Shown here in pieces: positions 980-35,029 of a stretch of DNA of 35,141 bases; within the stretch, counting starts at the first letter, position 1; each line of letters starts with the position of its first letter. The translations under genes were made by a program, and so were the position numbers. Source of the DNA: a virus. The notes beneath the pieces are model-generated. The model had not been told where the DNA came from and made no database searches. It worked only from the letters and a program-made list of their open reading frames with translations. The DNA lies in IMG/VR virus record IMGVR_UViG_3300024313_000504, positions 1 through 35,141 of that record. One strand, 5' to 3'.

Positions 980-1474
980 ATGGCAAACATTGATAACAAA
1001 TGTAAAGATTTGGAAGTAAGAGACTTCTTTACAGAAAACGGTTATGATCATTCTAAGAATTCTTTAGAAGATCTTTATTCATTACAGAATGAAACACAAT
1101 CTATGTATTTTGAAAAACAAGGAAAGAAACCTTTTTCAGAATATAACATAGGTGATGTAGTAGATTTTCTAATGGTTACTAATCATGCAATCATTGATGA
1201 ATTACATGAGATGATGGATGCAGTTGGTGGAATTGAAGACGGTGAAGGTAATGCTGCATGGAAACCTTGGAAGTCTACAAACCCTGAAGTTAGAAATAAA
1301 AAATTATCTGATTTAACCCCAGGTGATTTAAAAGAACTTAAAATGGAATGGATAGATGTAATGCATTTCGTATTTAATGCTGGGCTAGCGATAGGTGTTA
1401 CTCCACAAGAATTTTATAATTTTTACTTAAGTAAGAACGAAGAAAATTGGAATAGACAGAAAAACAATTACTAA
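980..1474 (+). CDS. All-alpha NTP pyrophosphatase, dUTPase/dCTPase-like
   Basis: 164 aa, resembling the dimeric all-alpha dUTPase/dCTPase group (MazG-like superfamily, which includes T4 gp56). The metal-binding signature is visible as ExxE at E74-E77 (DELHEMMD) and ExxD at E123-D126, followed by H129 (EWIDVMHF). A Trp pair, W94-W97, lies between the two helices. The family hydrolyses dUTP and/or dCTP to the monophosphate, which limits uracil in DNA and feeds dTMP synthesis. That fits a position upstream of the polymerase and ribonucleotide reductase genes. Whether it prefers dUTP or dCTP cannot be read from the sequence. Preference matters here, because dCTP removal would hint at modified cytosine in the phage DNA. 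Confidence 0.82.
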   Translation: MANIDNKCKDLEVRDFFTENGYDHSKNSLEDLYSLQNETQSMYFEKQGKKPFSEYNIGDVVDFLMVTNHAIIDELHEMMDAVGGIEDGEGNAAWKPWKSTNPEVRNKKLSDLTPGDLKELKMEWIDVMHFVFNAGLAIGVTPQEFYNFYLSKNEENWNRQKNNY

Positions 1475-3981: not shown

Positions 3982-4599
3982 ATGTATATAAATAATATAA
4001 CAAACGACTTAAAAATAGAAGATTATACAATTAGCATTCACCCATCGGTTAAATTGGTAAATTGTGAAATTAATTCATTTGGTAAAAATCATACTTTAAT
4101 TATTGATGAGGGCGTATCATTATGCAATGTTAAGTTTCGGTTTGAAGGATCAGGGTCTACTGTACATATTAAAACTAATACTATCATTCAACAAAATGCC
4201 TTACTTTGGTTGGAGAATAATACTTCTATAACAATTGGTAGTGGTTCAAGAATTGAAAGTGTACATATAGCAGCATTAGAAAATAAAAAAGTAATTATAG
4301 GTGATGGATGTTTATTTGCTTCTGATATTGAAATAAGAACAAGTGATAGTCATTTTATATATGAAAAGGGTACTACTAATAGAATTAATCACCCTTCTGA
4401 TGTTATCATAGGAAATAAAGTTTGGGTATGTGCATATTGTAAAATTATGAAAGGCGTTAATATTGAAGATAATTGTGTTATAGGATCTTCATCATTAGTA
4501 AACAAATCATTTAAAGAAAGTAACGTGATTATTGCAGGTGTGCCTGCAAAAATAATAAAAAGAGATATTGAATGGTCAACATGGGCTAAGAAAAATTAA
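3982..4599 (+). CDS. Hexapeptide-repeat (left-handed beta-helix) acyltransferase
   Basis: 205 aa O-acetyl/acyltransferase-like protein. Imperfect hexapeptide turns run through most of the chain (for example SITIGSGSRI, VIIGDGCLF, VIIGNKVWV, NCVIGSSSLV). The C-terminal IIAGVPAKIIKR is typical of the maltose/galactoside acetyltransferase branch. H in TSDSHFI is the likely catalytic His. Such enzymes acetylate sugars or sugar-linked amines using acetyl-CoA. It lies between nrdB (9 nt away) and nrdA (6 nt away), so it interrupts the reductase operon and is probably co-transcribed with it. Its function fits better with the glycan genes that start at 6391. The acceptor is unknown. Confidence 0.85.
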   Translation: MYINNITNDLKIEDYTISIHPSVKLVNCEINSFGKNHTLIIDEGVSLCNVKFRFEGSGSTVHIKTNTIIQQNALLWLENNTSITIGSGSRIESVHIAALENKKVIIGDGCLFASDIEIRTSDSHFIYEKGTTNRINHPSDVIIGNKVWVCAYCKIMKGVNIEDNCVIGSSSLVNKSFKESNVIIAGVPAKIIKRDIEWSTWAKKN

Positions 4600-6390: not shown

Positions 6391-7137
6391 ATGAAAGACT
6401 ATACTTATATACTTGGCCCTTGTAGTATTGAAAACGAGGATAACTTTTTAGAAGTAGCTAAAACATTAGATGCTTATATGGGAGATAAGAACTGGTACTT
6501 AAAAGGATCTTTTGATAAAGCAAATAGAACTTCTATACATTCCGATAGAGGTCCTGGTTTAGAAGAAGGGATGGAAATCATGAGAACCATTAAGCACTAT
6601 TATCCTAATATTAGAATTATAACAGATATCCATGAACCTTCTCAAGCATTACCTTTATCTGAAGTAGTAGATGTTATTCAAATACCTGCATTTTTATGTC
6701 GCCAAACTGACCTTTTGATAGCATGTGCAAAAAACTTTAATGTTATTAATATTAAGAAAGGCCAATGGTTATCTGCTGAAGCAATGAAACATGCAGTTGC
6801 TAAGATTAAAGAAGTAGACCCAACCTGCGAAGTATGGGTAACTGAAAGAGGATCTAATTTTGGGTATGATAGATTAATTGTAGATTTTAGAGGAGTTGAT
6901 GTAATGAAAGAATTTGCAGATAAAGTTATTTTAGATTGCACTCACTCAACACAGATGGCCGGTGAAGGTATAACCGGAGGTAGTCGTAAATTGGCTAAAC
7001 AGTATTCACAAGCCGCAAAGATATTTGAATATGATGGATCTTTTATTGAAACTCACCCAGATCCAGATAATGCAATATCAGATGCCGGAAGTCAGGTAGA
7101 ATTAGATTGGTTAATTTCCAATTTAGATAACATATGA
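6391..7137 (+). CDS. kdsA: 3-deoxy-D-manno-octulosonate 8-phosphate synthase, metal-dependent type
   Basis: 248 aa TIM-barrel enzyme condensing arabinose 5-phosphate with phosphoenolpyruvate to KDO-8-phosphate, an early step of lipopolysaccharide inner-core synthesis. Family motifs run throughout: GPCSIE (9-14), KGSFDKANRTS (38-48), RGPGLEEG (53-60), TDIHEPSQA (78-86), QIPAFLCRQTDLL (97-109), TERGSNFGYD (151-160), DCTHSTQ (182-188) and ETHPDPDNA (220-228). C11, H185, E220 and D231 match the four metal ligands of the Aquifex-type enzyme; E. coli KdsA has Asn instead of the Cys and needs no metal. The end overlaps the next ATG (ATGA). I recognise neither kdsB nor a typical kdsC in the window, so the product may enter the host pathway or a phage-specific one. 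Confidence 0.95.
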   Translation: MKDYTYILGPCSIENEDNFLEVAKTLDAYMGDKNWYLKGSFDKANRTSIHSDRGPGLEEGMEIMRTIKHYYPNIRIITDIHEPSQALPLSEVVDVIQIPAFLCRQTDLLIACAKNFNVINIKKGQWLSAEAMKHAVAKIKEVDPTCEVWVTERGSNFGYDRLIVDFRGVDVMKEFADKVILDCTHSTQMAGEGITGGSRKLAKQYSQAAKIFEYDGSFIETHPDPDNAISDAGSQVELDWLISNLDNI

Positions 7138-8204
7138 ATTTAGAAAAGATATTAGAAAATAGCCTTAAGACTGAAAACCATAAGTATTTTCATATTGAAG
7201 ATTTAACTGAATGGTCCAAAAAAGTTTTATCCAAAGGTCATGTTGAATATCATACGGATGAAGACGATAATGTAATTTCTTATGTAGCTTATTATAAAAA
7301 TAAAAATAGTTATTTTATTACTATGGTATGGACTCATCCTAATCATAGAGGTAAAGGTCTTTCTAAAAAAATCATTAAAGATATTGTAGATTCAACTGAG
7401 CTTCCTATTGATTTAGAAGTTCATAAAGATAACCCTGCATATAACTTATATCGAATATTAAAGTTTGAAACTGTTGGCTTTAATGATGATCTCATAATAA
7501 TGAGGAGATGTAAGAAGTTAGCTATAATGCAACCTTATATCTTTCCTTATGTAGGTTACTTCAGTTTAATCAATTCATCTGATAAAATTTTATTTTATGA
7601 TGATGTTAACTTTATTAAAAGAGGATGGATTCACAGGCAAAGAATCCTCATAAATGGTAAGGATCATTTATTTACCATTCCTTTAAATAAACCATCACAA
7701 AATAAAAAGATAAATCAAATAGAAATATCTGAAAATGAAAGTAGAATAAAAATCATAAAGAGTATTGAAAGCGCATATAAAAAGGCACCATACTTTAAAG
7801 AAGTTTTTCCAATTATCAAAAAAGTCATATTAGGTAAGTATACACATATTGATGAAATGGCTATTTCTTCTTTAGCTGCAGTATGTAAATATTTAAACTT
7901 AGAGATTAATTATGATAGGACTTCAAAGGCTGATCCTAATTCACAAGGAAAAGAAAAGTGTGAAAGGTTAGCATCCATAACAAAGACATTAGGTTTTTCT
8001 AATTATGTAAATGTAATAAATGACATGTATGATAAAGAAACTTTTAAAACAAAAGGTGTTAATTTATTTTTTAATGATCATAAAATAAAATCATATAACC
8101 AATTCGGTAAACCCTTCGTATCTCACTTGTCAATTATTGATGTTTTAATGTTTAATTCAATAAGAGACACCAAGAAATTAATATTATCATATCATATCAT
8201 TTAA
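7134..8204 (+). CDS. Fusion of GNAT acetyltransferase and WbqC-like protein
   Basis: 356 aa with two parts. Residues 1-125 look like a GNAT N-acetyltransferase: the acetyl-CoA loop is HRGKGLSKK (71-79), and NPAYNLYRILKFE (100-112) is the usual C-terminal GNAT motif. Residues 128-356 match the WbqC-like family (LAIMQPYIFPYVGYF at 129-143, then KILFYDDVNF), which is found in O-antigen and capsule clusters and is thought to help build N-acylated amino sugars. An in-frame ATG at 7500 sits exactly at the domain junction and is preceded by CATAATA, so a free WbqC-like product is possible. The ATGA overlap with kdsA implies translational coupling. The joint activity is probably modification of an amino sugar (inference). 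Confidence 0.85.
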   Translation: MNLEKILENSLKTENHKYFHIEDLTEWSKKVLSKGHVEYHTDEDDNVISYVAYYKNKNSYFITMVWTHPNHRGKGLSKKIIKDIVDSTELPIDLEVHKDNPAYNLYRILKFETVGFNDDLIIMRRCKKLAIMQPYIFPYVGYFSLINSSDKILFYDDVNFIKRGWIHRQRILINGKDHLFTIPLNKPSQNKKINQIEISENESRIKIIKSIESAYKKAPYFKEVFPIIKKVILGKYTHIDEMAISSLAAVCKYLNLEINYDRTSKADPNSQGKEKCERLASITKTLGFSNYVNVINDMYDKETFKTKGVNLFFNDHKIKSYNQFGKPFVSHLSIIDVLMFNSIRDTKKLILSYHII

Positions 8205-8210
8205 CGGATA

Positions 8211-8220
8211 TATAATAAAA
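8211..8220 (+). promoter_or_regulatory. Putative phage promoter, TATAATAAAA
   Basis: Near match to the recurrent element inside TATATAATAAAA, starting 23 nt before the ATG at 8234 and just after the stop of the GNAT-WbqC gene. Confidence 0.5.
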
Positions 8221-8233
8221 TTAGAAAACCAAT

Positions 8234-9121
8234 ATGTTACAGTCATATGATACTTACTTATTATTAGAATCTTTTATTAATGATAAAAACTTTGAAATTT
8301 TAAATGAAAAGAATCTTTCTAGTAAAATTAATAATGATATAAAATTTGCTGTGGTTATGCCAACTTATAAAATTAAGAGTGATGCAGGTGTACATAAGAC
8401 AAGAGCAAGTCATATGTCTTCGGTTGATGTTCTTAAGGATTCATTAGGATCTATTAAAAATCAAAAATTTAAAAATTGGAAATTATTTATAGTTGGTGAT
8501 AAGTATGAAGAAGATCAAGAATTAAAAGATTTACTATCTTCTATGTTTAAGCCTGGCCAATATGAATATTTTAATTTACCTAAACCTGGTGAAAGAGAAT
8601 CTAATATATCATCGGAAGAAAAAAGATTAACTGGAGGAATTAAAGCAGTTAACAAAGGATTAGATATGGCGGCATCTGCCGGTTTTGATTATGTTACAAG
8701 ATTAGATCATGATGACAAATGGGCGCCTAATCATTTAGAGCTTTTGGCAAAAGCATATTCACAATTTCCTAACCTAGGATTTGTGTTTACTCAAGGTAAG
8801 AAAAAGATAGATGCTACTAATTCTTCTGGCGGTTATATGATGATGCCTGATGCGACACCAGAATTAGATGTTAATAACAAAGGTTATGCAACAGGTCAAA
8901 CTGCTGCTAGTTCTGTTTCATGGTGTCCTAAGTTAATCGGTAAATTTAAATACCGAGATGCATCAGCACAAAAAGGAACTGAACCAAAACAAAAGAAAAC
9001 TATTGCCGGTGATGTTGATTTATTTCAACGGATGATGAAAGCAATAAAAGACAAAGAACATAAATACATGTTTATACCTAAGATGACTGTATATCACAGG
9101 AACAGAAAAGGTAAATTTTAA
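8234..9121 (+). CDS. Family 2 glycosyltransferase (GT-A fold)
   Basis: 295 aa. The Rossmann-like nucleotide-sugar domain starts at FAVVMPTYK (38-46). The metal-binding DxD is within RLDHDDKW (D158, D160, D161), after FDYVTRLD. GDVDLFQRM, late in the protein, is a plausible catalytic-base region. No membrane segment is evident, so it is probably a soluble cytoplasmic enzyme. Its own promoter-like element precedes it, and the Hc1 gene and a strong terminator follow. Sugar donor and acceptor cannot be deduced. By context it is one of three probable glycosyltransferases in a 10-kb sugar block. Confidence 0.88.
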   Translation: MLQSYDTYLLLESFINDKNFEILNEKNLSSKINNDIKFAVVMPTYKIKSDAGVHKTRASHMSSVDVLKDSLGSIKNQKFKNWKLFIVGDKYEEDQELKDLLSSMFKPGQYEYFNLPKPGERESNISSEEKRLTGGIKAVNKGLDMAASAGFDYVTRLDHDDKWAPNHLELLAKAYSQFPNLGFVFTQGKKKIDATNSSGGYMMMPDATPELDVNNKGYATGQTAASSVSWCPKLIGKFKYRDASAQKGTEPKQKKTIAGDVDLFQRMMKAIKDKEHKYMFIPKMTVYHRNRKGKF

Positions 9122-9128
9122 GTGAATA

Positions 9129-9146
9129 TATATTAAAACAATAAAA
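9129..9146 (+). promoter_or_regulatory. Weak promoter-like element before the Hc1 gene
   Basis: TATATTAAAACAATAAAA, a degenerate version of the recurrent element, starting 28 nt before the ATG at 9157. With the terminator downstream it could make the Hc1 gene a separate small transcript. Confidence 0.35.
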
Positions 9147-9156
9147 AATAACTATT

Positions 9157-9333
9157 ATGGAAAAATTCGAAGAAATCAAAGCCCTTATTGAATCAGTAAG
9201 TGAAGACGTAGATAAATTTTACGCGAAAGGAAATAAGGCAGCTGCTGTTAGAATTAGAAAATCAATGCAAGATGTTAAAAATCTAGCACAAGAATTGAGA
9301 TTACACGTCCAGGAGACAAAGAACAATATGTAA
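9157..9333 (+). CDS. Hc1-type histone H1-like DNA-binding protein
   Basis: 58 aa. The whole sequence is a helical, charged protein with the family core DKFYAKGNKAAAVRIRKSMQ (19-38) and LAQELRLHVQETK (43-55). From memory this matches the short histone H1-like (Hc1 domain) proteins encoded by nearly all Flavobacteriia and other Bacteroidota. Those bind or bridge DNA and are related to the N-terminal part of chlamydial Hc1. In a phage it could compact or mark phage DNA, or mimic and replace the host protein. It sits alone between the GT2 gene and a perfect terminator, with a degenerate promoter-like element before it. The family call is strong; the role is inference. It is the best clue to the host phylum. 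Confidence 0.85.
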   Translation: MEKFEEIKALIESVSEDVDKFYAKGNKAAAVRIRKSMQDVKNLAQELRLHVQETKNNM

Positions 9334-9351
9334 TTTTACCTATCTTCTATT

Positions 9352-9385
9352 AAAAAGGACTATCTTTAACTAGGTAGTCCTTTTT
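9352..9385 (+). terminator. Intrinsic terminator after the Hc1 gene
   Basis: AAAAAGGACTA pairs perfectly with TAGTCCTTTTT. The stem can be extended by TCT/AGG to 14 bp with a six-base loop, and it ends in a T-run. The A-rich left arm would allow some function on the opposite strand, but no minus-strand genes are present. Confidence 0.9.
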
Positions 9386-9432
9386 GTTTGTATAATGTCC
9401 TATTATACTTGAAACTTTTTTTAAAACCTCTA

Positions 9433-9444
9433 TATAATAATAAA
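9433..9444 (+). promoter_or_regulatory. Promoter of the sugar operon, TATAATAATAAA
   Basis: One of the best matches to the recurrent element (TATATAATAATAAAT from 9431), 25 nt before the ATG at 9458. It lies between a strong terminator and a run of eight closely packed genes, so it should drive the operon 9458-16469. Confidence 0.65.
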
Positions 9445-9457
9445 TCAGTTAATTTAT

Positions 9458-10009
9458 ATGGAAAGGTGCTTAATATTAGATTTTGATGATACATTAGTTT
9501 CAACTATTGATACTCATGCAAATTCTTGGAAGCTTGCAATAGAAAGAGTGCTAAATAGAGATATTCCTATTGAAACAATAATGTCAGATATTAATTATGG
9601 AATGGATGTTCTTTTAAAAAAATATCAATTAACTGAAACTGAATCTCAATTAGCACAAGATTATAAAAGAGAAATATTTTCAAAGAATCTTCATAAGACT
9701 AAGATAAACCAATTACTTTTGTGGATAATTAAAAATTCACAATTTGAAAAGGTTATTATAGCATCAAATTCGTCTAGAGAAAATGTAGATAGAATTATGG
9801 CTTATCATAATATAAGTCACGAATTATTTGATTTGATTGTAACAAGAGATAATGTTTTAAATAAAAAGCCACATTCAGATATGGCAGATTTAATTTTTAA
9901 AACATTTCCTAAATATAATCCATCTGATTTTTTAATGGTTGGTGATTCAGAAGTAGATTCAACATTCGCACATAAAAACAAAATGAAATGCATACTGGTA
10001 AAGTTTTAG
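9458..10009 (+). CDS. HAD-superfamily phosphatase (beta-phosphoglucomutase-like)
   Basis: 183 aa. HAD motif I is DFDDT with nucleophile D8 and acid/base D10. Motif II is IASNSS (S103). Motif III is K137 in NKKPHSD. Motif IV is VGDSEVD (D163, D167). A helical cap lies between motifs I and II (about 15-85), placing it in the capped subfamily with phosphoglycolate phosphatase and beta-phosphoglucomutase. It is first in a tightly coupled operon and overlaps the kinase gene by 22 nt. It probably removes phosphate from, or moves it on, a sugar intermediate. KdsC-type KDO-8-phosphatases lack such a cap, so I do not call it KdsC. Confidence 0.88.
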   Translation: MERCLILDFDDTLVSTIDTHANSWKLAIERVLNRDIPIETIMSDINYGMDVLLKKYQLTETESQLAQDYKREIFSKNLHKTKINQLLLWIIKNSQFEKVIIASNSSRENVDRIMAYHNISHELFDLIVTRDNVLNKKPHSDMADLIFKTFPKYNPSDFLMVGDSEVDSTFAHKNKMKCILVKF

Positions 10010-10734
10010 TAGGAAACAGTGGAGACAGAGTATATCTCCAAGATAACAAAGTTATTAAAGAGGCAGGGGTTTATCCTATAAAGTTTAAACAACAAATGGA
10101 TTGGTTGCGAAACTGTACTCACCCTAATTTTATAAAAATCAATCCTATTTCAGATACCTCATTTGAAATGAAAAGGTACCCTACTTGGTATGATAAAATC
10201 TGTGAGCAGCCATTAATTAAATCAATTGACCAATTAGATGATCTCATTCATATTGTAAATGATTTTGATGGTTATGGTACTGATGTAGATACAAGATCTT
10301 ATTTAGATAAATTAGAAGGTAGGACAGGATATAAATATGAAGGTAATTTAAATGCCTCATCCGGTTGGGGTTTTGTTCATGGTGATTTAACAGTAAGCAA
10401 TATTTTATATGATAAGGACTTTATTTTTATTGATCCACGAGGTACTGAAGAACAGAATTATTATGATTATGGAAAACTGATGCAATCTTTTGTAATGAAA
10501 TATGAGGCCCATATATACAATGAAAGGAATTCTAAATACCTTAAGTTCTGTAGAGAAGCAGAAAATATAATGTATGAATGGTATGATGAATATCAATTAA
10601 AATTCTTTTTAGCGGTTCACTTATTAGGAGCAGTACCTTTCTTTGAATTAAACGAAAGATATGAATTAGCTGGAATGTTCCTTAAAAAAGGCCATGAATT
10701 ATTTGACGAATTAGAAATTAAATATAGCAAATGA
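9988..10734 (+). CDS. APH/choline-kinase-fold small-molecule kinase
   Basis: 248 aa. A reduced protein-kinase-like fold is indicated by a Gly-rich start (VGNSGDRVYL), the ATP-binding Lys K24 (VIKEA), the catalytic loop HGDLTVSNIL (H131, D133, N138), and a DFG-equivalent metal-binding Asp D149 in IDPRG. This is the signature of aminoglycoside phosphotransferase, choline kinase and capsule-cluster sugar kinases. Between a phosphatase and a nucleotidyltransferase it most likely phosphorylates a sugar or polyol for nucleotide activation (inference). Resistance to an antibiotic is less likely in this setting. It overlaps its neighbours on both sides (22 nt upstream; ATGA downstream). Confidence 0.82.
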   Translation: MHTGKVLVGNSGDRVYLQDNKVIKEAGVYPIKFKQQMDWLRNCTHPNFIKINPISDTSFEMKRYPTWYDKICEQPLIKSIDQLDDLIHIVNDFDGYGTDVDTRSYLDKLEGRTGYKYEGNLNASSGWGFVHGDLTVSNILYDKDFIFIDPRGTEEQNYYDYGKLMQSFVMKYEAHIYNERNSKYLKFCREAENIMYEWYDEYQLKFFLAVHLLGAVPFFELNERYELAGMFLKKGHELFDELEIKYSK

Positions 10735-11438
10735 GCAGAGTAAGAAAAGCAATTATCTTAGCAGCCGGGAGGTCTACTAGGTATGGATCAAATAAACTTA
10801 TAGATCCAATTTTAGGAAAATCAACAATCCAGTACTGTATTGAATTCTGTATTGAAAATGGAATAGAGGATGCGTATGTTACAATAAGTAAATCTGACTT
10901 CTTTTTTAAGAATAGGAATACAAAGTTATCTCATCCTATTATTGAAAGTTTATCAAAGTATAAAGAAAAGATAAACATTTGTTATGAATTCCAGGAGGAT
11001 GATGAATATGGGCCAGGTGCTGCAATTAAGGCATGGGAAGGTAAATTTTATGAACCTTTCTTATGTCTCTTTGGTGACAATTATTACCAAGGTAATATTG
11101 GCTTAGAATACCATGATCCAAACAATACTGTTGTTACTTATAAGGATTATGATACTAGAGCAAGGAATTTACAACTAGCTACTATCATAGAAGATGTAGT
11201 TATTGAAAAACCTCATGGTGTAGTAAACGGTAGATACTTCTGTGGATATATGATATTTGCAAAAGAAGCGTTTGATAACTTAAGCAGTATTAAATTATCT
11301 AATAGGAATGAATATGAAATTACTCATCTTATAAACTCGATGAATGTTTTAAAATTTGAAGAATTAGATATATGTTGGTATGATTTAACATACGAACAAG
11401 ATAAACAAGTAATAGAAGATATTATTCAAAATTGTTAA
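10731..11438 (+). CDS. Sugar-1-phosphate nucleotidyltransferase (RmlA/GalU-like)
   Basis: 235 aa. The N-terminal signature is AIILAAGRSTRYGSNK (7-22), the NTP-binding loop of this family. LCLFGDNYYQ holds the Asp that binds the catalytic metal and sugar phosphate, and EKPHGVVNGRYFCGYMIF is the expected sugar-binding region. The reaction would be NTP plus sugar 1-phosphate giving NDP-sugar plus pyrophosphate. It differs from KdsB, whose start is PARxxSxRxPGK. Translation is coupled to the kinase by ATGA, and the next gene begins two bases after the stop. The nucleotide and sugar are not predictable from the motifs I can see. Confidence 0.87.
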   Translation: MSRVRKAIILAAGRSTRYGSNKLIDPILGKSTIQYCIEFCIENGIEDAYVTISKSDFFFKNRNTKLSHPIIESLSKYKEKINICYEFQEDDEYGPGAAIKAWEGKFYEPFLCLFGDNYYQGNIGLEYHDPNNTVVTYKDYDTRARNLQLATIIEDVVIEKPHGVVNGRYFCGYMIFAKEAFDNLSSIKLSNRNEYEITHLINSMNVLKFEELDICWYDLTYEQDKQVIEDIIQNC

Positions 11439-11439
11439 T

Positions 11440-12705
11440 ATGAAAGAAAATGTAAAAAAGATTGGTTTTTTTAAATTAGGTAAAGCCATAAAGTTTAATG
11501 AAAACAGTTGGAGCGCAATTGGAGGCGATTGCGAACCTAAGCAATTAATTTGTTCAATTGCAAACCGAAATCCTAATATTGAATATTGGTTATTAAGCCC
11601 TAATGATTTAGGTAAGTTTAGAGCAAAACAAAAACCTAAAGTAGCTTCATTGTTTGGTCCTCCTACTACTGATGATCCAATAGTACCTAATAATATTAAG
11701 GAATTTCATTCTACTATGAAAGAGAGAAAGTCTACCGATGAAACCGTTGAAATTATCCAAGGGTTAGATTTAGATTTTATTTTCTTTTATACTGGTCCAA
11801 CAAGTACTGTTAATATCCCAGAGTATATTAATAAGAAGGATGGTACCGGTCAAGTTAAATCATTAGACTTCTTTAAGTATTATGCAGCTCCTATTATTAA
11901 ATCAATGAATGAGTTGGAAAAGAAAGTTCCTATTGTTGGTTTACTTGTTGATAACCGTTATATTCTTGCATGTAAAGATTGGGGAATTAACAATAGGCCA
12001 ACTTATTACTTAGCACAAAATACATTTACTAAAGAAGAGCAGTATTTCTGCAACCCACCATTAAGAGATGTTAAAACTATTACATCTACCTATGAATATT
12101 CAGGTATTGAAACAGTATTTTTATTAGATAAGAAAAGATATGATACTGATGAATTATTTAAAATGAAGAAGACTGATTCATTTATGATGCTACAGAATCA
12201 AGGTAAAGGATCAGGTGGAATGGATCGTTGGGATCCGGTAAAAGAATATATTGTTGATCAAGAAATAGAGACTGATATCTATGGAAAATGGGATGACGAG
12301 ATTAAGGAAAAGTATCCTAAATGGTTTAAAGGTGAAACTAGAATTGAAACAATGACCGATGAATTACTCGGTACTAAATATACATTCTGTGTACCTATTA
12401 AAGAAGGTATGGTAACCTCTAAGTATGCAGAAATGCTACACTATGGTATTATACCATTCTTACACCCATCTTACGACACTGACTTTAATGTATTCCCTGA
12501 AGGACATTTTATTAGATGTAAATCAGCAGAAGATTTAAAAAAGAAAATAGAATTCTTAAATGCAAACCCAGAGCATTACAAGAAATTATTTTATAACCTA
12601 CAAGAAAAGTATCTTAAGGATTCTTATTATACTGGAGAACATGTAGATAACAAGATCTGGGAATCTTATGAAAGAGTAACTAAAACTGAAACCGTAAATG
12701 TATAA
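11440..12705 (+). CDS. Probable GT-B-fold glycosyltransferase
   Basis: 421 aa. I do not recognise a precise family. The C-terminal third looks like the donor-binding domain of a GT-B transferase: TFCVPIKEGMVTSKYAEML (about 335-353), then HYGIIPFLHPSY and a helical run (EDLKKKIEFL…YKKLFYNLQEKYL) that is common at the end of GT-B proteins. The N-terminal part has IGFFKLGKAIKF and DFIFFYTGPTS, compatible with a Rossmann-like acceptor domain. Phage DNA-glucosyltransferases also use this fold, so modified DNA is one possible acceptor; glycans or virion proteins are others. The end overlaps the epimerase start by 8 nt. Confidence 0.6.
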   Translation: MKENVKKIGFFKLGKAIKFNENSWSAIGGDCEPKQLICSIANRNPNIEYWLLSPNDLGKFRAKQKPKVASLFGPPTTDDPIVPNNIKEFHSTMKERKSTDETVEIIQGLDLDFIFFYTGPTSTVNIPEYINKKDGTGQVKSLDFFKYYAAPIIKSMNELEKKVPIVGLLVDNRYILACKDWGINNRPTYYLAQNTFTKEEQYFCNPPLRDVKTITSTYEYSGIETVFLLDKKRYDTDELFKMKKTDSFMMLQNQGKGSGGMDRWDPVKEYIVDQEIETDIYGKWDDEIKEKYPKWFKGETRIETMTDELLGTKYTFCVPIKEGMVTSKYAEMLHYGIIPFLHPSYDTDFNVFPEGHFIRCKSAEDLKKKIEFLNANPEHYKKLFYNLQEKYLKDSYYTGEHVDNKIWESYERVTKTETVNV

Positions 12706-13720
12706 TTCTGAAACAAAAATCCTAGTCACCGGTGGTGCTGGGTTCGTTGGTACAAATTTTATCAATGATTTATTAAATAGAGGCCATAACCCTAAATGTA
12801 TTGCTGTGATTGATAACATGGAACACGGTACTTATATACCTAAAGTCCATGACCAAATTGAAAATTTTCATAAAGTAGATATTAGAAATCAATATGTAGA
12901 AAATATAATTCAGGAATTTTCTCCTGATTATGTTTACCACTTTGCAGGGTTAGTTTCTATTTATGATTGTCACGAAGACCCTTATGAAGCTGTAGATAAT
13001 AATATCTTAGGAAGTATTAATGTAATGAACGGCTGTGTAAAGGCAGATGTAAAAAGAATTATCTTTAGTGAAACTTCTGCAGTATACGAAAATTGTGAAA
13101 TGCCTAAAGAAGGATTTAACGAAAAGCAATCTGATCCTACTACAATTTATTCTACAACTAAAGCATGTCTTGCCTTATTAGCAGAATCATATCAGAGAAC
13201 TAAAGGTTTAAATTATACTGCATTAAGATACTTTAATGTTGCAGGACCACTACAAGATTATAATAGAACTATTCCTCCTGTATTTGCCGGATTTATTTTA
13301 AGAATTAAAGGTAATCATAATCCTATAGTGTTTGGTGATTATATGAAAGCAAGAGATTATATTGATGTATCTGATGTTAACGCATTTCATATTCTTTGTA
13401 TGGAAAATGAAGACACGGCAAACCAAACATTTAATTTAGGTACTGGTAAAATGACAAACCTAATGGATCTTAAAAATATGATTGGTGATATTATGGGAGT
13501 TGATGAACCTGTGTTTGATCATTACGATCCAATTGCAGGTGAGGCTTTAAATATTAGAGGAGATATCTCTAAAGCTAAGTCGGTAGGATGGGAACCTAAA
13601 AAGGATATTAGAGATACTATTAAAGAAACGATAGTTTACCTCGAAGAAGAGATTAGACAAGGTACAATTGATCCATTAACATTTATGGAAAATTTAGAAA
13701 TTGAAAAAGTAAAAATTTAA
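12698..13720 (+). CDS. NAD-dependent sugar epimerase/dehydratase (extended SDR)
   Basis: 340 aa. The NAD-binding loop is TGGAGFVG (11-18). The catalytic triad region is SETSAVY (124-130) and Y151-xxx-K155 (YSTTK). Further matches are ALRYFNVAGP and ARDYIDVSDV, which place it near the UDP-glucose 4-epimerase/GDP-mannose dehydratase group. It probably converts the nucleotide sugar made by the upstream nucleotidyltransferase into the form used by the glycosyltransferases. Which epimerisation or dehydration it catalyses cannot be told. It is tightly packed between the GT-B-like and C5-methyltransferase-like genes. Confidence 0.93.
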   Translation: MYNSETKILVTGGAGFVGTNFINDLLNRGHNPKCIAVIDNMEHGTYIPKVHDQIENFHKVDIRNQYVENIIQEFSPDYVYHFAGLVSIYDCHEDPYEAVDNNILGSINVMNGCVKADVKRIIFSETSAVYENCEMPKEGFNEKQSDPTTIYSTTKACLALLAESYQRTKGLNYTALRYFNVAGPLQDYNRTIPPVFAGFILRIKGNHNPIVFGDYMKARDYIDVSDVNAFHILCMENEDTANQTFNLGTGKMTNLMDLKNMIGDIMGVDEPVFDHYDPIAGEALNIRGDISKAKSVGWEPKKDIRDTIKETIVYLEEEIRQGTIDPLTFMENLEIEKVKI

Positions 13721-13721
13721 T

Positions 13722-14984
13722 ATGGAAAAAGAATTAAAATGGGGTACTATAATTCCACTGATTGGCGGTAGTGCTATAGGATGTAAAAAATCTGCAGGTA
13801 ATGAACCGGCCTTTCATTTAAGCTATGATGCATTTGCTGCTAATGAAAGTCATATCGAAAAATATTGGCCAGAAGTACCTATGTACAGATTGGATCATGA
13901 AGATTTAGATATACCTAAACAAACTTTTAATGAAGTCGACTATGTAAATTCAGTATGTCCTTGTGCAGGTTTATCACAATTAAATTCTGCGAAAGGTAGT
14001 GCTGCATCTCGAGGATCTGGCGCAACACAGAATCAATGGATGTATAATTCATCAGAGTATATTTTAGAAAATGTAAAGCCTAAAGTTCTTTGGGGTGAAA
14101 ATGCACCTGGTCTTTTTACTAAGATGGGAGAAGGCGTAGTTGATAGATTAAAAGCTATTGGTGAAAAATACGGATATAGTTTTTCGTTAATTAAAACTAA
14201 TACTGAATTGCATGGAATACCACAAAGAAGAATGAGAACCTTTTATTTCTTTTGGAATACCCCAACAGTTCCTATGTTAAGTTGGAAGTTTAGAGAAAAG
14301 AAAAATCTTATTGATTATTTGAATGAAATACCAGAAGATGCTACGCACCAAGATATGTTTATGGTTGAAGGAAAGGTTACAGACCATTTTAAACCTTATG
14401 AATATGTTTTAGAAAAAGAAGGTTTAACACACTCTGAATTTGCTGCTAAATTTAAGAAAGGTACTATTGCACAGTACTTAGAAAAAAATGAATTAATACC
14501 TGATTGTATTAAATGGTTAGAAGAACATTATCCTAAAAGAGGATTTTCAAATAAAAAATCTACAAAGACTTTTATTGATATGTTAGAGCACCAAGAATAT
14601 AAAACTAGTCAAGGGTTAGGTTATTGGGATGCATCACCACACTTCTTTCATGATTCATTTTCTGCTCTTATTGGTAGAAATATGTTTAATGGTGTTCATC
14701 CTATAGAAAATAGATATCTTAATGTAAGAGAGATGTTGCATTTAATGGGCTTACCTCTAGACTTCGGTATTGAAAATCCAAAGCAAGTAAATCATATTGC
14801 ACAGAATGTACCAGTGACTACTGCAATGGATATGGCTGATGAAGTTAAGAAATTTTGCAACGGTGAAGCTAAAATGACTAACTATACATTTTTAAAGCAA
14901 GACAATACAAATCATAAAATTATTGAATCTGTAGAAATTGGATCAGAACCTAAAAAGAAATATAAAGTAAAAAGTATAATTTAA
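13722..14984 (+). CDS. C5-cytosine methyltransferase-like protein with unusual motif I
   Basis: 420 aa. Motif IV is SVCPCAGLSQ, with the PC nucleophile C81. Motif VI is GENAPG (E126, N127). Motif VIII is IPQRRMR (168-172). Motif IX-like RYLNVREMLHLMGLP (331-345) and motif X-like QNVPVTTAMDMADEV complete the fold. The SAM-binding motif I is not the usual FxGxGG: the start reads IPLIGGSAIGCKKSAGNEPA, and the acidic ribose-binding residue is not obvious. A large insertion (about 185-300) lies in the target-recognition region. The nucleophile suggests chemistry at C5 of a pyrimidine in DNA. Its place inside a sugar operon raises the possibility that it prepares a base for glycosylation (inference). 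A plain DNA methyltransferase is the conservative reading. Confidence 0.8.
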   Translation: MEKELKWGTIIPLIGGSAIGCKKSAGNEPAFHLSYDAFAANESHIEKYWPEVPMYRLDHEDLDIPKQTFNEVDYVNSVCPCAGLSQLNSAKGSAASRGSGATQNQWMYNSSEYILENVKPKVLWGENAPGLFTKMGEGVVDRLKAIGEKYGYSFSLIKTNTELHGIPQRRMRTFYFFWNTPTVPMLSWKFREKKNLIDYLNEIPEDATHQDMFMVEGKVTDHFKPYEYVLEKEGLTHSEFAAKFKKGTIAQYLEKNELIPDCIKWLEEHYPKRGFSNKKSTKTFIDMLEHQEYKTSQGLGYWDASPHFFHDSFSALIGRNMFNGVHPIENRYLNVREMLHLMGLPLDFGIENPKQVNHIAQNVPVTTAMDMADEVKKFCNGEAKMTNYTFLKQDNTNHKIIESVEIGSEPKKKYKVKSII

Positions 14985-14986
14985 TT

Positions 14987-16003
14987 ATGAAAGATAACGC
15001 GCTAGCCATAGGAATATCTAGTCTAGAGTTTACAAATATTTTATGTAGTTATTATCCTAAAGGAATCAAAGAAAATTTTGATATTTATTTATTTGTAGAT
15101 AATACTAAAATAGATTTAGAAAAACTTAAAGGTATTTTTAATGAACATAACTTAGATATTTTTAAAAATGCAAAGATAATAATACTAAAAGACCTTTATG
15201 ATTATTATATAGAAAAGCATAATTATGAAGGTAAGTCTAAAGAATTTTTATTAAGTCATGGATGCTTATTTAAAATCTTAATGCCTATATACTTAAAGGA
15301 AAAATTTAAAGTAAAGAGAACCTTAGTGTCAGATGACGATGTATTTATTTTAAATGACCTAAGTTATATGTGGGATGAATATGAAGAGTTCGGTATTAAA
15401 AAAGAAAACTTATTTTATATTAGAAATAAAGATAAGCATGATGTAATGAATGCTTTTAATGAAATTTTTGAAAGTGACTTTACATTAGACCAAATGAATA
15501 ACCTTTCAATAAATGCAGGTAATATTATTTATGCTGATGATCCTAAATTAGAATATTACTTTGAACGATTTATGAAGCATCCTTTTATTCACCACCAATA
15601 TTTTAATTTTAGTGGATATACAAGCTGGACAGTAGAACAGAGATTCCATCATTTTAACATTCATAGGTATTTAGCGGAAGGTAGAAAGGTAAAGTTTACT
15701 GAAAGTAAAGATTTAAGATTAATGCAAAATAGAGATAAGATGATGAAGGCAGGTACACCTCCTGATAAGTATCTTAAGGTAGTTGTACCTTCTATTATTC
15801 ATTATGCAATAGGAGTAAAAAAACCGCTATGGTTAAATGATTTTTTACCAGGCCTAGAATGGAGATACGGTTTTAAATATGAAGCCAAATACGAGCTTAA
15901 AAATATACTTTATGACAAGAATTGGCAACCACCTTCTTTTAAAAGTATACAGAAAAATGGATTTATATTAAAAAAAGAATTAAAAACAAAATCAGTATTT
16001 TAA
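14987..16003 (+). CDS. GT-A glycosyltransferase, GT8-like
   Basis: 338 aa. The metal site is VSDDDVFIL (D116-D118). SINAGNIIYA (174-183) matches the N-[AS]-G segment that follows the DxD in GT8 enzymes. The segment before the DxD (LFKILMPIYL) also fits that family. The C-terminal region (after 250) is basic and aromatic, without a predicted membrane helix. No nucleotide-sugar specificity can be read. It follows the C5-methyltransferase-like gene by two bases and precedes the cyclophilin gene by one, so it belongs to the same operon. Confidence 0.72.
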   Translation: MKDNALAIGISSLEFTNILCSYYPKGIKENFDIYLFVDNTKIDLEKLKGIFNEHNLDIFKNAKIIILKDLYDYYIEKHNYEGKSKEFLLSHGCLFKILMPIYLKEKFKVKRTLVSDDDVFILNDLSYMWDEYEEFGIKKENLFYIRNKDKHDVMNAFNEIFESDFTLDQMNNLSINAGNIIYADDPKLEYYFERFMKHPFIHHQYFNFSGYTSWTVEQRFHHFNIHRYLAEGRKVKFTESKDLRLMQNRDKMMKAGTPPDKYLKVVVPSIIHYAIGVKKPLWLNDFLPGLEWRYGFKYEAKYELKNILYDKNWQPPSFKSIQKNGFILKKELKTKSVF

Positions 16004-16004
16004 A

Positions 16005-16469
16005 ATGGAAAGAATAATAACAGCAACCTTTAAAATGGATAAAGGTGATATAATTTTTAGATTATTAGAAGAGGCATCATTTCATACTAATAGATTTATA
16101 GATAATGCCAACAACGGCTTATTTAAAGATATTGTCTTTAGTAGAGTAATTCCTGGCTTTATGGCACAAAGTGGTCCTAATGAACCTGCTGAAGGTACTC
16201 ATTCATATATGCATGATGAGTTAATTCCACCAAGAAGGTATAAAGAAAATAACAAACATTTTTTTGGAACACTAAGTGGAGCAAACACTGGACAGCCTAA
16301 TAGTGATATGGGGGCGTTTTTTGTATGCTTTTCTATAAATGCCACAAGACATTTAGATGCTGGTCATACTACGTTTGGTCAAGTATTTGATGGCTGGGAA
16401 CATATAGAAAAGATAGAACAGGGAGATATCATTAACAATGTAATTATTAACGCATATACATTAAACTAA
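16005..16469 (+). CDS. Cyclophilin-type peptidyl-prolyl cis-trans isomerase
   Basis: 154 aa single-domain cyclophilin. FSRVIPGFMAQSG (45-57) carries R47, F52, M53 and Q55, equivalent to human CypA R55, F60, M61 and Q63. MGAFFVCFS (102-110) and RHLDAGHTTFGQVFDGWE (115-132) complete the active site. The position of CypA W121 is H116, which usually means weak cyclosporin binding. There is no signal peptide, so it should be cytoplasmic. It is the last gene of the sugar operon. It could assist folding of an operon enzyme or a structural protein. A cyclophilin is an uncommon gene for a T4-like phage and was probably acquired from a bacterium. Confidence 0.93.
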   Translation: MERIITATFKMDKGDIIFRLLEEASFHTNRFIDNANNGLFKDIVFSRVIPGFMAQSGPNEPAEGTHSYMHDELIPPRRYKENNKHFFGTLSGANTGQPNSDMGAFFVCFSINATRHLDAGHTTFGQVFDGWEHIEKIEQGDIINNVIINAYTLN

Positions 16470-17954: not shown

Positions 17955-19079
17955 ATGACAGAGACTACAGAATTACAAAAAATTAACGAGGAGGCATCAA
18001 AGTTTTATAATTATGAACAGGCAGTTAAGTTAATGCTTAACTCTATATACGGTGCATTTGGTAATCCTTATTTTTATTTCTTTAATGTAGATATAGCAGA
18101 AACAATTACCCTCCAAGGTAAAGATGCTATTTTATATACCGAAGAATTGCTTAATAGGTATTTTAAAGATTATTGGCATAAAGATATTGCAGCTCATAAA
18201 GAAATGGGAATAACCGTAACAGGTAAAATTGAAAAACCTGTAGGTATTTATATTGATACAGATTCTGTTTATGTTAAATTTGATGAGGTAATAGAAAAAT
18301 CAGAAGGCTGGAAAGGTGATGAAAAGGAATTTATTTTAAAGCTATATAAAGTTAGAGTAAATGAGTACCTTGAAAAGATTTTACAAAAATATGCGGATGT
18401 AAATAACGCGGAAAACTTTTTATCTTTTGAATTAGAGAGTATTGCTAAAAATGCAATTTGGTTAGCCAAGAAAAAATATATGCAAAATATAGTTTGGAAG
18501 GATCCTGATATTCACTACGATGATCTTTCTAAAATTAGCTCAAAAGGATTTGAAATCATACAATCATCTACTCCTATTTTTGCTAGAGAAAAACTAAAGG
18601 AACTATTAACTTATATTTTTTCTGTTAGTAAATTAGATATGAAAGCTTTTGCTGCATTACTTAAAGATGTTAAGAGACAGTTTAGATTGGCTAACGTAGA
18701 TCAAATCAGTTTTTCAAGAAAAGTAAATAACTATCAAAAGTATATTGTTAATGATTATGAATCATTTGAGATTGCATCTAAATGCCCAATCGGTGTTAGG
18801 TCAGCAGGGTATCATAATTACTTACTAAATAATTCAGGCAAAAAAGGTAAATATCAACCATTAGGAAATGGTGAAAAATGTAAAATGTATTTTTCTGAAG
18901 ATAAATCTTGTGATGTATTTGCATATGCACCTGGTGATTATCCTTATGAATTTGCTCCTAAAATTGATTATGATAGGCAGTTTGAAAAAACAATATTAGA
19001 TCCAATAAATCGTGTTGTAACCGCAATGGGCTTTAAAGGATTTAATCGAAATCTTATTTATACTACAAGCCTCTTCTAA
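17955..19079 (+). CDS. 43B: DNA polymerase (T4 gp43 type), C-terminal piece: motifs B and C, thumb
   Basis: 374 aa. After a 17-residue lead the protein enters the fingers N-helix with motif B, K25-xxx-N29-S30-x-Y32-G33 (KLMLNSIYGAFGN). Motif C is YIDTDSVYV (D101, D103). The palm/thumb segment includes AKKKYMQNIVW and SSKGFEIIQSSTP, which align with RB69 gp43 (KKRYALNVW; QKSSTP). The C-terminus ends in TTSLF; RB69 gp43 ends in a clamp-binding peptide containing SLF, so clamp binding may be kept. There is no exonuclease domain or motif A. Those are on 1497-2903, about 15 kb upstream. Two separate start codons, promoters and stops show that the split is genuine rather than a sequencing frameshift. 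Confidence 0.95.
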   Translation: MTETTELQKINEEASKFYNYEQAVKLMLNSIYGAFGNPYFYFFNVDIAETITLQGKDAILYTEELLNRYFKDYWHKDIAAHKEMGITVTGKIEKPVGIYIDTDSVYVKFDEVIEKSEGWKGDEKEFILKLYKVRVNEYLEKILQKYADVNNAENFLSFELESIAKNAIWLAKKKYMQNIVWKDPDIHYDDLSKISSKGFEIIQSSTPIFAREKLKELLTYIFSVSKLDMKAFAALLKDVKRQFRLANVDQISFSRKVNNYQKYIVNDYESFEIASKCPIGVRSAGYHNYLLNNSGKKGKYQPLGNGEKCKMYFSEDKSCDVFAYAPGDYPYEFAPKIDYDRQFEKTILDPINRVVTAMGFKGFNRNLIYTTSLF

Positions 19080-33319: not shown

Positions 33320-35029
33320 ATGTACGCAAATCAATTAATCAACGAGGCTGAGGTTCAAAAGACCTGGGGCCCTATCATTGAGGAAAGTACTGGTATCACT
33401 GAAAAAGCCAAGTTATCTTGGATGTCTAAGTATTGCCATTACCATAACCTTAATGAAAGTGTATATAATACTGTACACTTAAATCCAAACATGAATACTC
33501 AAGGTATGGGAGCAACTGCTTTTCCTAGTGATCCTACTACAATGAACAACTTTAACGGTGCTATGACTCCAGGTTCTGGAGATAGACCTTTTTCTTTGTT
33601 ACCACTTGCAATGCAAGTAGCAGCTCAGACTGTAGGTTTAGACTTAGTACCAGTTGTACCAATGCAAGGTCCTATGGGAGTATTAACTTACCTAGACTTC
33701 GTATATGGTGGAGGTAGAACAACTCAAGCTGGTGGAATAGACGGAAACTCTGCTCCATTATTAATTAAAGCTCCACTAACTCAGGTTACTGGAACTGCTT
33801 TAGCTGTAAATTCAGTAATCTACGTAGGTACTGGTGCAAATGCATCATATGAATTAACTTATGTAGGTCAATCAAGAATTGACGGATTTCCAATTTTCCG
33901 TGTAAGAGGTAACTCTGACGCTGCTGGAACTACGTTTGCTCAAGGTACTGAAGGATACGAACCAATTTATACTGCTGTTGCTGCTGCTACTAGCTTTTTC
34001 TTAGAAGCTGCAATGACTACTGACTTAGGTGACTTTGACGGTGCTGCTGAATACGTTAAAGCTTTAGAAGACCATATTACTGGTTTCTCTGGTGATGCGT
34101 TTGAAGACAACAACAGAGCTGGTAATCCACCAATGGTTGCTATTGACTCTAACGATCCTTATGAAAGAGGTGTAGGAGAATCTACTCCAGATAACATTAT
34201 GGGTCTAAGTTTATTTAACAAATCAGTTGCTGCAAAAACTTTCCAAGTTGCTGCTGCCGTAACTAGAGAACAAGTTCAAGATCTGAAGCAATTCGGAATT
34301 GACGCTGTTGCTCAAGTAGAAGCTGTATTGGTAAATGAGTTAACTCAATCTATTAACAAATACATCTTGGATAGAATCTTCAGAAATGGAGCTACTAATG
34401 CAGGTAATGTAAATACTGTTGATGGTTTACAATTATCTGCTGCTTATGGTACTACTGTTGGTGCTGTTACAATTCCACTAGGACTTGGAAATGCTGACAA
34501 CACAACAATTATCAATGCAACTGTTCAAAGAACTATTGTTGGTGCAGGTGGTGAAACACAAGGAACTTTACAACGTAGGTTGTATACTAAAGTACTTGCT
34601 GCTTCTAACCTAATCGCAACAAGAGGAAGAAGAGGACCTGCTACTTTCGCAGTAACTTCTGGAGAAATTGCTACGGCACTTCAGGATGTTGCAGGATTCG
34701 TACCTTACCCACTATCAAATACAATCAACCAAGCTGGTGGATCTTTATATCCAATCGGTGCTTTGGCTGGTGTAACTATTTATGTTGATCCAAACATGGC
34801 TTGGACTGACTATAGAGTTGCTGTAGGTAGAAAAGGTGATGGTAATTCTCCTGGATTAGTATTCATGCCTTACTTAATGGCTGAATCTGTTGAGACAATC
34901 GCAGAAGGAACTATGGCTCCTAAAATCGCGGTTAAATCTAGATTCGCTTTAGTAGACGCTGGATTCCACCCAGAAACAATGTATTACACATTAGGTTTTG
35001 AATTCGAGGCTGGTACTAGTATCATCTAA
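33320..35029 (+). CDS. 23: Major capsid protein (T4 gp23)
   Basis: 569 aa, somewhat longer than T4 gp23 (521). The HK97-fold capsid family is shown by the N-terminal LINEAEVQKTWGPIIEE, PLAMQVAAQTVGLDLVPVVP followed by GPMGVLTYLDFVYGG, and the C-terminal VGRKGDGNSPGLVFMPYL with KSRFALVDAGFHPE. It forms the capsid hexamers. The N-terminal region has candidate protease sites I-E-E22 before S23 and L-N-E46 before S47, matching the [LIV]-x-E-S motifs in the protease-scaffold protein. No TATAAWAATAAA element lies at the usual distance. A hairpin leader and a strong downstream terminator frame the gene. Codon use looks more C- and G-tolerant than its neighbours, as expected for high expression. Confidence 0.97.
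   Translation: MYANQLINEAEVQKTWGPIIEESTGITEKAKLSWMSKYCHYHNLNESVYNTVHLNPNMNTQGMGATAFPSDPTTMNNFNGAMTPGSGDRPFSLLPLAMQVAAQTVGLDLVPVVPMQGPMGVLTYLDFVYGGGRTTQAGGIDGNSAPLLIKAPLTQVTGTALAVNSVIYVGTGANASYELTYVGQSRIDGFPIFRVRGNSDAAGTTFAQGTEGYEPIYTAVAAATSFFLEAAMTTDLGDFDGAAEYVKALEDHITGFSGDAFEDNNRAGNPPMVAIDSNDPYERGVGESTPDNIMGLSLFNKSVAAKTFQVAAAVTREQVQDLKQFGIDAVAQVEAVLVNELTQSINKYILDRIFRNGATNAGNVNTVDGLQLSAAYGTTVGAVTIPLGLGNADNTTIINATVQRTIVGAGGETQGTLQRRLYTKVLAASNLIATRGRRGPATFAVTSGEIATALQDVAGFVPYPLSNTINQAGGSLYPIGALAGVTIYVDPNMAWTDYRVAVGRKGDGNSPGLVFMPYLMAESVETIAEGTMAPKIAVKSRFALVDAGFHPETMYYTLGFEFEAGTSII

Follow-up and report, generated by a model that had tools for sequence, protein, structure and literature searches.

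A conserved phage gene cassette probably glycosylates modified cytosine in DNA and carries a C5-methyltransferase-like protein with an altered SAM pocket

The 35,141-base IMG/VR virus record IMGVR_UViG_3300024313_000504, a linear fragment that was analyzed over its whole length and is referred to here as the window, probably derives from a T4-like phage infecting Bacteroidota. Between its nrdA and clamp genes lie eleven open reading frames (ORFs), which the original prediction had read as a block of sugar, acyl, and base-modifying genes that together could make and transfer an unusual sugar. All eleven ORFs are present on the plus strand, and their order largely recurs in ≈35 related contigs, so the block is not a product of chance. 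The block consists of two modules, however: a variable sugar island, module A (6391–9121), and a tight, conserved operon, module B (9458–16003), with a cyclophilin gene behind it. We focus on module B and on its probable role in DNA hypermodification.

Module B opens with a HAD phosphatase (9458–10009; HAD_2 PF13419, 8e-22), an APH-fold sugar kinase (9988–10734), and a sugar-1-phosphate nucleotidyltransferase (10731–11438; NTP_transf_3, 1.5e-6; TIGR03992, 5e-16; PDB 2ggo, 2.5e-6). A GT-B glycosyltransferase (11440–12705), an NAD-dependent nucleotide-sugar epimerase (12698–13720; Epimerase PF01370, 3e-46), a cytosine-5 methyltransferase (C5-MTase)-like protein (13722–14984; PF00145, 2e-19), and a GT8-like putative glycosyltransferase (14987–16003) follow. 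Most of the family assignments made earlier are backed by Pfam. The matches for APH (0.02) and GT-B (PF13524, 0.004) are weak, although the kinase carries the active-site string HGD..N..IDPRG and the fold of the glycosyltransferase is clear, and the GT8-like ORF, assigned by eye from a DDD motif, found no family match in the profile scan. From 9458 to 16469, neighboring genes overlap or lie ≤3 bases apart, and the stretch therefore looks like one operon. Upstream of it are three features that the earlier reading had overlooked: the gene for Hc1, a histone H1-like protein of 58 residues that is kept in the clade (9157–9333, plus strand; PF07432, 1.5e-23), a terminator-like hairpin with a 15-pair stem and a T tail (9351–9386, plus strand), and a promoter-like site (9409–9438; 11/12 match). 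The latter two are consensus matches; the region holds nine terminator-like patterns against 2.8 expected, and the 15 pairs of this hairpin make it a strong one. Taken together, the Hc1 gene, hairpin, and promoter-like site suggest two transcription units.

The related IMG/VR contigs mostly keep nrdA, kdsA, a variable region, the GT2 and Hc1 genes, the module B genes from HAD to GT8-like, and the clamp gene. Median identities in this clade, taken over distinct identity values and descriptive only, are 87 to 93% for the GT-B, C5-MTase-like, nucleotidyltransferase, and epimerase proteins and ≈88% for the clamp, UvsX, and DnaB; GT2 (52%), cyclophilin (56%), and HAD (69%) are more variable. Had related phages carried these genes singly and scattered, the idea of a joint pathway would have lost its footing; for 9458 to 16003 the opposite was found, and the genes are kept together, with the GT8-like gene lost in one subclade (loci L018, L026, L033, and L036). 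More distant phages have the core only. Pseudoalteromonas phage XG4 and three further loci (L032, L037, and L039) combine a thymidylate-synthase-type (TS-type) gene, a HAD, a fused nucleotidyltransferase-kinase, a GT-B protein (≈30% identity), and a C5-MTase-like protein (34–63%). Profile scans of IMG/VR returned at least 272 GT-B and at least 593 C5-MTase-like stretches, of which the best 80 of each were kept; in the distant GT-B loci (L154–L199), a C5-MTase-like gene is nearby in 46 of 46, and most also have a HAD and a nucleotidyltransferase-kinase or TS-type gene. The cassette is widespread and apparently undescribed: we found no description of it in the literature searched, which covered few subscription papers and is weak evidence.

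Clues to the acceptor base come from outside the original block. At 980 to 1474 (plus strand), the window encodes a gp56-like dCTP/dUTP pyrophosphatase (dUTPase_2 PF08761, 7e-4) that is kept in relatives and shares 36% identity (E 2.8e-24) with an XG4 homolog, which in turn appears to resemble T4 gp56. We propose that this dCTPase belongs to the pathway. In the window clade, every contig of sufficient length has a TS-type gene, seen ≈50 kb downstream of the C5-MTase-like gene in G001, G002, G005, G006, G008, and G011 and not found in shorter contigs; in locus L090, a thymidylate-kinase-family kinase precedes it. All examined records longer than 100 kb that bear a C5-MTase-like gene, phage G being outside this survey, have a divergent TS-type gene, including records of 389 and 360 kb in which the two genes lie far apart. 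Setting these two records aside, all cassette TS-type proteins checked have Asp in place of the Asn of thymidylate synthase, the dCMP-specific form, whereas two canonical ThyA proteins in the set have Asn; the catalytic Cys is present wherever the fragment extends to it. The Asp-bearing TS-type genes together with the gp56-like gene therefore make dCTP removal and hydroxymethyl-dCMP synthesis likely. In Thanatos, an oxygen is bound directly to C5 of cytosine (PMC12838424); by analogy, the acceptor may be 5-hydroxy- instead of 5-hydroxymethylcytosine.

The sugar-activation genes lead to phage RB69. The kinase and nucleotidyltransferase of the window each align with the fused nucleotidyltransferase-kinase family (hhalign 96.3 and 96.2%), and this family is homologous to RB69 ORF53_52c (blastp 2e-12; hhalign 97.6 and 96.5% for the two parts), so that homology to ORF53_52c is established through the fused family at hhalign 96 to 98%. 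ORF53_52c has been proposed to serve UDP-arabinose supply in RB69 (Thomas et al., PMC6024577), and its Thanatos homolog TH1_060 is essential (PMC12838424). The small HAD of distant cassettes is homologous to RB69 ORF051 (hhalign 99.9%). That RB69 gene (NC_004928 27708–28094; L094) is annotated as a phosphoheptose isomerase and is probably misannotated. Gene arrangement varies among loci: L117 has kinase, nucleotidyltransferase, and HAD as separate genes, like the window; L162 and L191 have a cytidylyltransferase-like gene in place of this arrangement; and L039 also has a SIS isomerase domain fused to a HAD and a ribulose-phosphate-epimerase-like gene. A close homolog of the window epimerase (1e-120) lies between the HAD and GT-B genes in L162 and L170. 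The cassette genes favor a pentose-type sugar without naming one.

A sequence search of the PDB with the GT-B profile gave no match, and fold comparison was therefore needed. The two best PDB fold matches of the AlphaFold2 model (pLDDT 72.7, pTM 0.76) are structures of T4 DNA beta-glucosyltransferase (BGT; 1nzd and 1qkj), and T4 AGT is also listed. At a TM score of ≈0.5, the model points to a fold shared with BGT, and its specificity for DNA is suggested by context.

The C5-MTase-like protein is an unusual relative of DNA methyltransferases. Its profile aligns securely with that of 81 canonical C5-MTases from the database (hhalign 99.8%, E 7e-28), and residue conservation was assessed over 43 representatives below 75% pairwise identity; sequences of M.HhaI and T4 gp42 served as alignment yardsticks only, and the conclusions rest on the 81 C5-MTases and the RB69 and XG4 proteins. 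The catalytic residues of a canonical enzyme are in place (C81, E126, and R170/R172, with ENV reading ENA), and Cys81, ENAP, QxRxR, and QNVP are invariant in the 43 representatives. The S-adenosylmethionine (SAM) pocket, in contrast, lacks FxGxG and the motif II acid: the residues at HhaI F18, G20, and E40 are replaced in 43 of 43 by Ile or Val (one Gln), Leu, and Ser, Thr, or Gly, respectively, whereas the 81 canonical relatives keep them. The Pfam match starts only at profile position 44 to 46. An aromatic residue is kept at the W41 position, and the Asn at the N304 position (residue 362) is invariant; from these residues, SAM binding in another way is possible. A single-sequence PDB search gave no match, and the structure model, with a pLDDT of 69.7 and low values in the motif loops, does not allow the SAM pocket to be judged; its fold matches are C5-MTase folds.

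The family is almost restricted to phages, as only two contigs from metagenome-assembled genomes (MAGs), both probably viral, turned up among 84,980 prokaryote genomes scanned. Among 18 distinct lineages with full flanks, a dCMP-hydroxymethylase-type gene lies within 10 kb of the C5-MTase-like gene in 13, a GT-B gene in 9, and a nucleotidyltransferase-kinase gene in 10; none of 39 canonical C5-MTase loci, a control neither matched for genome size nor dereplicated, has any of the three. Other relatives adjoin a T4-type AGT (L130, E 3e-75), TAGT genes (L134, L143, L146, and L148), or an HMUDK-like gene with an inositol-phosphate synthase (L106), and gp301 of Bacillus phage G (26% identity) has a HAD, a thymidylyltransferase, and two genes annotated as alpha-glucosyltransferases in its vicinity. 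This linkage to hydroxymethylase-type, AGT, TAGT, and HMUDK-like genes marks the protein as a common partner of cytosine hypermodification, whichever group is added. As separate observations, relatives in L106, L118, L122, L127, L132, and L145 adjoin the inositol-1-phosphate synthase family and the family with the HMUDK-like L106 member, where inositol-type DNA decoration is possible, and L109 and L112 have a tandem pair of C5-MTase-like genes beside TS-type and nucleotidyltransferase-kinase genes.

The original assignment of this protein as a C5-MTase thus holds by homology, and its activity as a canonical SAM methylase is doubtful. An ordinary SAM-dependent enzyme that travels with the cassette and lays down protective 5-methylcytosine would agree with the clear homology, the retained catalytic Cys, Glu, and Arg and N304 equivalent, and the C5-MTase folds matched. 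We nevertheless consider it less likely than not, given the uniform loss of pocket residues that canonical relatives keep, the linkage seen at no canonical locus, and the little that would be left to methylate if most cytosine is already 5-substituted. In vitro and without SAM, canonical C5-MTases are able to add formaldehyde at cytosine C5 or to remove it, and they can couple nucleophiles to 5-hydroxymethylcytosine. Intact Cys chemistry, an altered SAM pocket, and a link to hydroxymethylcytosine would fit reactions of this formaldehyde or nucleophile type. Tentatively, we propose an enzyme specific to phages that has given up the usual mode of SAM use and applies Cys-C6 covalent chemistry on DNA cytosine to another reaction tied to hydroxymethylcytosine, perhaps placing one carbon onto leftover cytosines or activating hydroxymethylcytosine for the attachment of another group, as one shared core component of many phage cytosine-hypermodification systems.

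For module B as a whole, sequence comparisons make it highly probable that 9458 to 16003 is a DNA-hypermodification operon that glycosylates modified cytosine in the phage's own DNA, a variant of the T4/RB69 type. DNA glycosylation, one of several possibilities raised in the original prediction, is the best supported for this region because a gp56-like dCTPase is in the window and a dCMP-hydroxymethylase-type gene in the clade, because the best structural match of the GT-B protein is T4 BGT, because the sugar-activation genes are of the RB69 type, and because unrelated phages have the same core cassette. From the observed homologies, operon layout, conservation, and genetic linkage, we infer the reactions, the sugar, and their order. 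The gp56-like dCTPase would remove dCTP, and the TS-type dCMP-hydroxymethylase homolog encoded elsewhere in the genome, beside a dNMP kinase, would make 5-hydroxymethyl- (or 5-hydroxy-) dCMP for incorporation into DNA. The HAD phosphatase, APH-fold kinase, and nucleotidyltransferase would convert a sugar phosphate to the free sugar, the sugar 1-phosphate, and the nucleoside diphosphate sugar in turn, with the epimerase adjusting a sugar that may be a pentose, by analogy with RB69 and Thanatos. The GT-B enzyme would transfer this sugar to the modified cytosines of the DNA, in the manner of T4 BGT with glucose, and the GT8-like protein may attach a second sugar. DNA cytosine would also be the target of the C5-MTase-like protein within this pathway, though probably by a reaction other than ordinary SAM-dependent methylation.

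Several points weigh against this interpretation. Compared directly with RB69, the window nucleotidyltransferase and kinase give weak matches (hhalign 66 and 24%), and the window's own HAD is of another type and not orthologous to ORF051. The GT-B fold match also covers non-DNA transferases such as BshA, and the TS-type gene lies outside the window itself. The GT-B and C5-MTase-like genes are separable: the exceptions are cultured phages, with Enterococcus phages 9183, Planchet, and TJE4 having the former without the latter and cyanophage S-TIM5 the reverse. Support for every cassette member comes from sequence, a structure model, and context.

The block might instead make a sugar for the host envelope or for virion proteins, like the lipopolysaccharide-type auxiliary sets of large cyanophages, an explanation that draws chiefly on module A. 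This module comprises KdsA, a Kdo-8-P synthase (6391–7137; NF003543, 284 bits against a cut-off of 242), a GNAT-WbqC fusion (7134–8204; GNAT PF00583, 5e-8; WbqC PF08889, 2e-61), and a GT2 glycosyltransferase (8234–9121; PF00535, 7e-9), all on the plus strand and from families that usually serve envelope glycans. In most relatives, the slot between kdsA and GT2 is filled by a Polysacc_synt_2 dehydratase, a PglD-like acyltransferase, and a DegT aminotransferase, which we take to be a bacillosamine-type amino-sugar set, and relatives of the epimerase in cyanophages are annotated as nucleotide-sugar epimerases. Module B, however, is as conserved as the replication genes, and in distant phages it adjoins dCMP-hydroxymethylase-type rather than envelope genes, with relatives neighboring T4 AGT and TAGT. 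For the block as a whole this explanation is improbable, and envelope or virion glycosylation is likely true for module A only. KdsA is 63 to 96% identical in relatives and is missing in L030/L063, which keep the remaining genes. A single pathway for all eleven genes was accordingly rejected: the kdsA-GT2 region, including GNAT-WbqC, is a separate module that varies independently and ends at Hc1, the hairpin, and the promoter-like site. The cyclophilin (16005–16469, plus strand; PF00160, 8e-24), which few relatives have, is probably outside the proposed pathway.

Within DNA glycosylation, 5-hydroxymethylcytosine could be made in the DNA by a C5-MTase and a TET/JBP dioxygenase before glycosylation, as in TET-TAGT phages, and the TAGT genes beside four C5-MTase-like relatives recall such systems; this route is very unlikely, as TS-type genes would supply the hydroxymethyl group instead and PF12851 (TET/JBP) matched 0 of 20 and 0 of 34 records in scans run without a positive control. 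A CmoX-type carboxymethyltransferase making 5-carboxymethylcytosine can be dismissed almost entirely: CmoX (8yf3) is the top fold match of the C5-MTase-like protein, but this match is generic to C5-MTases, the N304 position holds an invariant Asn and not CmoX's defining Arg, the ribose-binding Glu is lost, and neither CmoA nor CmoY was noticed among the window's genes.

Other parts of the window bear on the phage itself. Hc1 and the Flavobacterium-phage-like nrdA (59%) hint at a Bacteroidota host; because the prokaryote-genome scan gave only the two MAG contigs, the host of the window clade stays an indirect assignment. The major capsid protein (33320–35029) is closest to that of the 462-kb uncultured huge phage LR756500 (60%), which also has kdsA, and then to those of Prevotella Lak phages (≈40%). 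DNA polymerase B is split into parts encoded at 1497 to 2903 (motif A) and 17955 to 19079 (motifs B and C); 15 kb separates the two genes, the entire block falls in this interval, and the split is kept in relatives. A hexapeptide acyltransferase gene (3982–4599) lies between nrdB and nrdA, and only L078 among the related contigs showed one. Flavobacterium phage MaF61 (L005) carries adenosuccinate synthetase and lyase genes amid structural genes, which could form a 2-aminoadenine-type pathway.

DNA whose cytosines carry a sugar resists restriction enzymes and Cas nucleases. Present in hundreds of phage contigs, a cassette of this kind would add to the known counter-defense repertoire and help to explain phage DNA that is hard to cut or sequence. 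The C5-MTase-like protein, which almost always accompanies it, stands out as a concrete candidate for new cytosine chemistry in DNA, and XG4 and S-TIM5, both in culture, open it to direct testing.

Among known systems, the nearest kin are the RB69 arabinosyl-cytosine locus (ORF048, ORF051, ORF53_52c, and API; PMC6024577) and Thanatos TH1_060/TH1_062 (PMC12838424), which share with the cassette a TS-type dCMP enzyme, a small HAD, a nucleotidyltransferase-kinase, and a dCTPase. RB69 differs in its glycosyltransferase (ORF003c has been proposed), and we found no C5-MTase-like gene in RB69 or Thanatos; relative to RB69, the window has its kinase and nucleotidyltransferase as two separate genes and additionally encodes an epimerase and a GT8-like protein. 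The cassette of Enterococcus phages 9183, Planchet, and TJE4 includes genes for a thymidylate kinase, a TS-type protein, a HAD, a nucleotidyltransferase-kinase, and a GT-B protein; no C5-MTase-like gene was detectable in these phages, and their cassette carries no annotated function. CmoX likewise is a C5-MTase homolog used for phage hypermodification. Unlike the cassette protein, it needs Cx-SAM, Arg350, and Glu47, and both residues are absent here; in CmoX, an Arg replaces HhaI N304 and the ribose-binding Glu47 is kept (PMC12783734). With T4 (gp42, gp56, AGT, and BGT), the cassette shares the dCTPase, the dCMP-hydroxymethylase type, the dNMP kinase, and a GT-B fold nearest to BGT, although its GT-B protein has no detectable sequence similarity to BGT and, unlike T4, it has a dedicated sugar-activation set and a C5-MTase-like partner. 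Overall, the cassette most likely works like the cytosine glycosylation systems of T4 and RB69; it differs in its transferase family, which is new, in the rearranged set of sugar-activation genes, and in an extra enzyme that is nearly always present.

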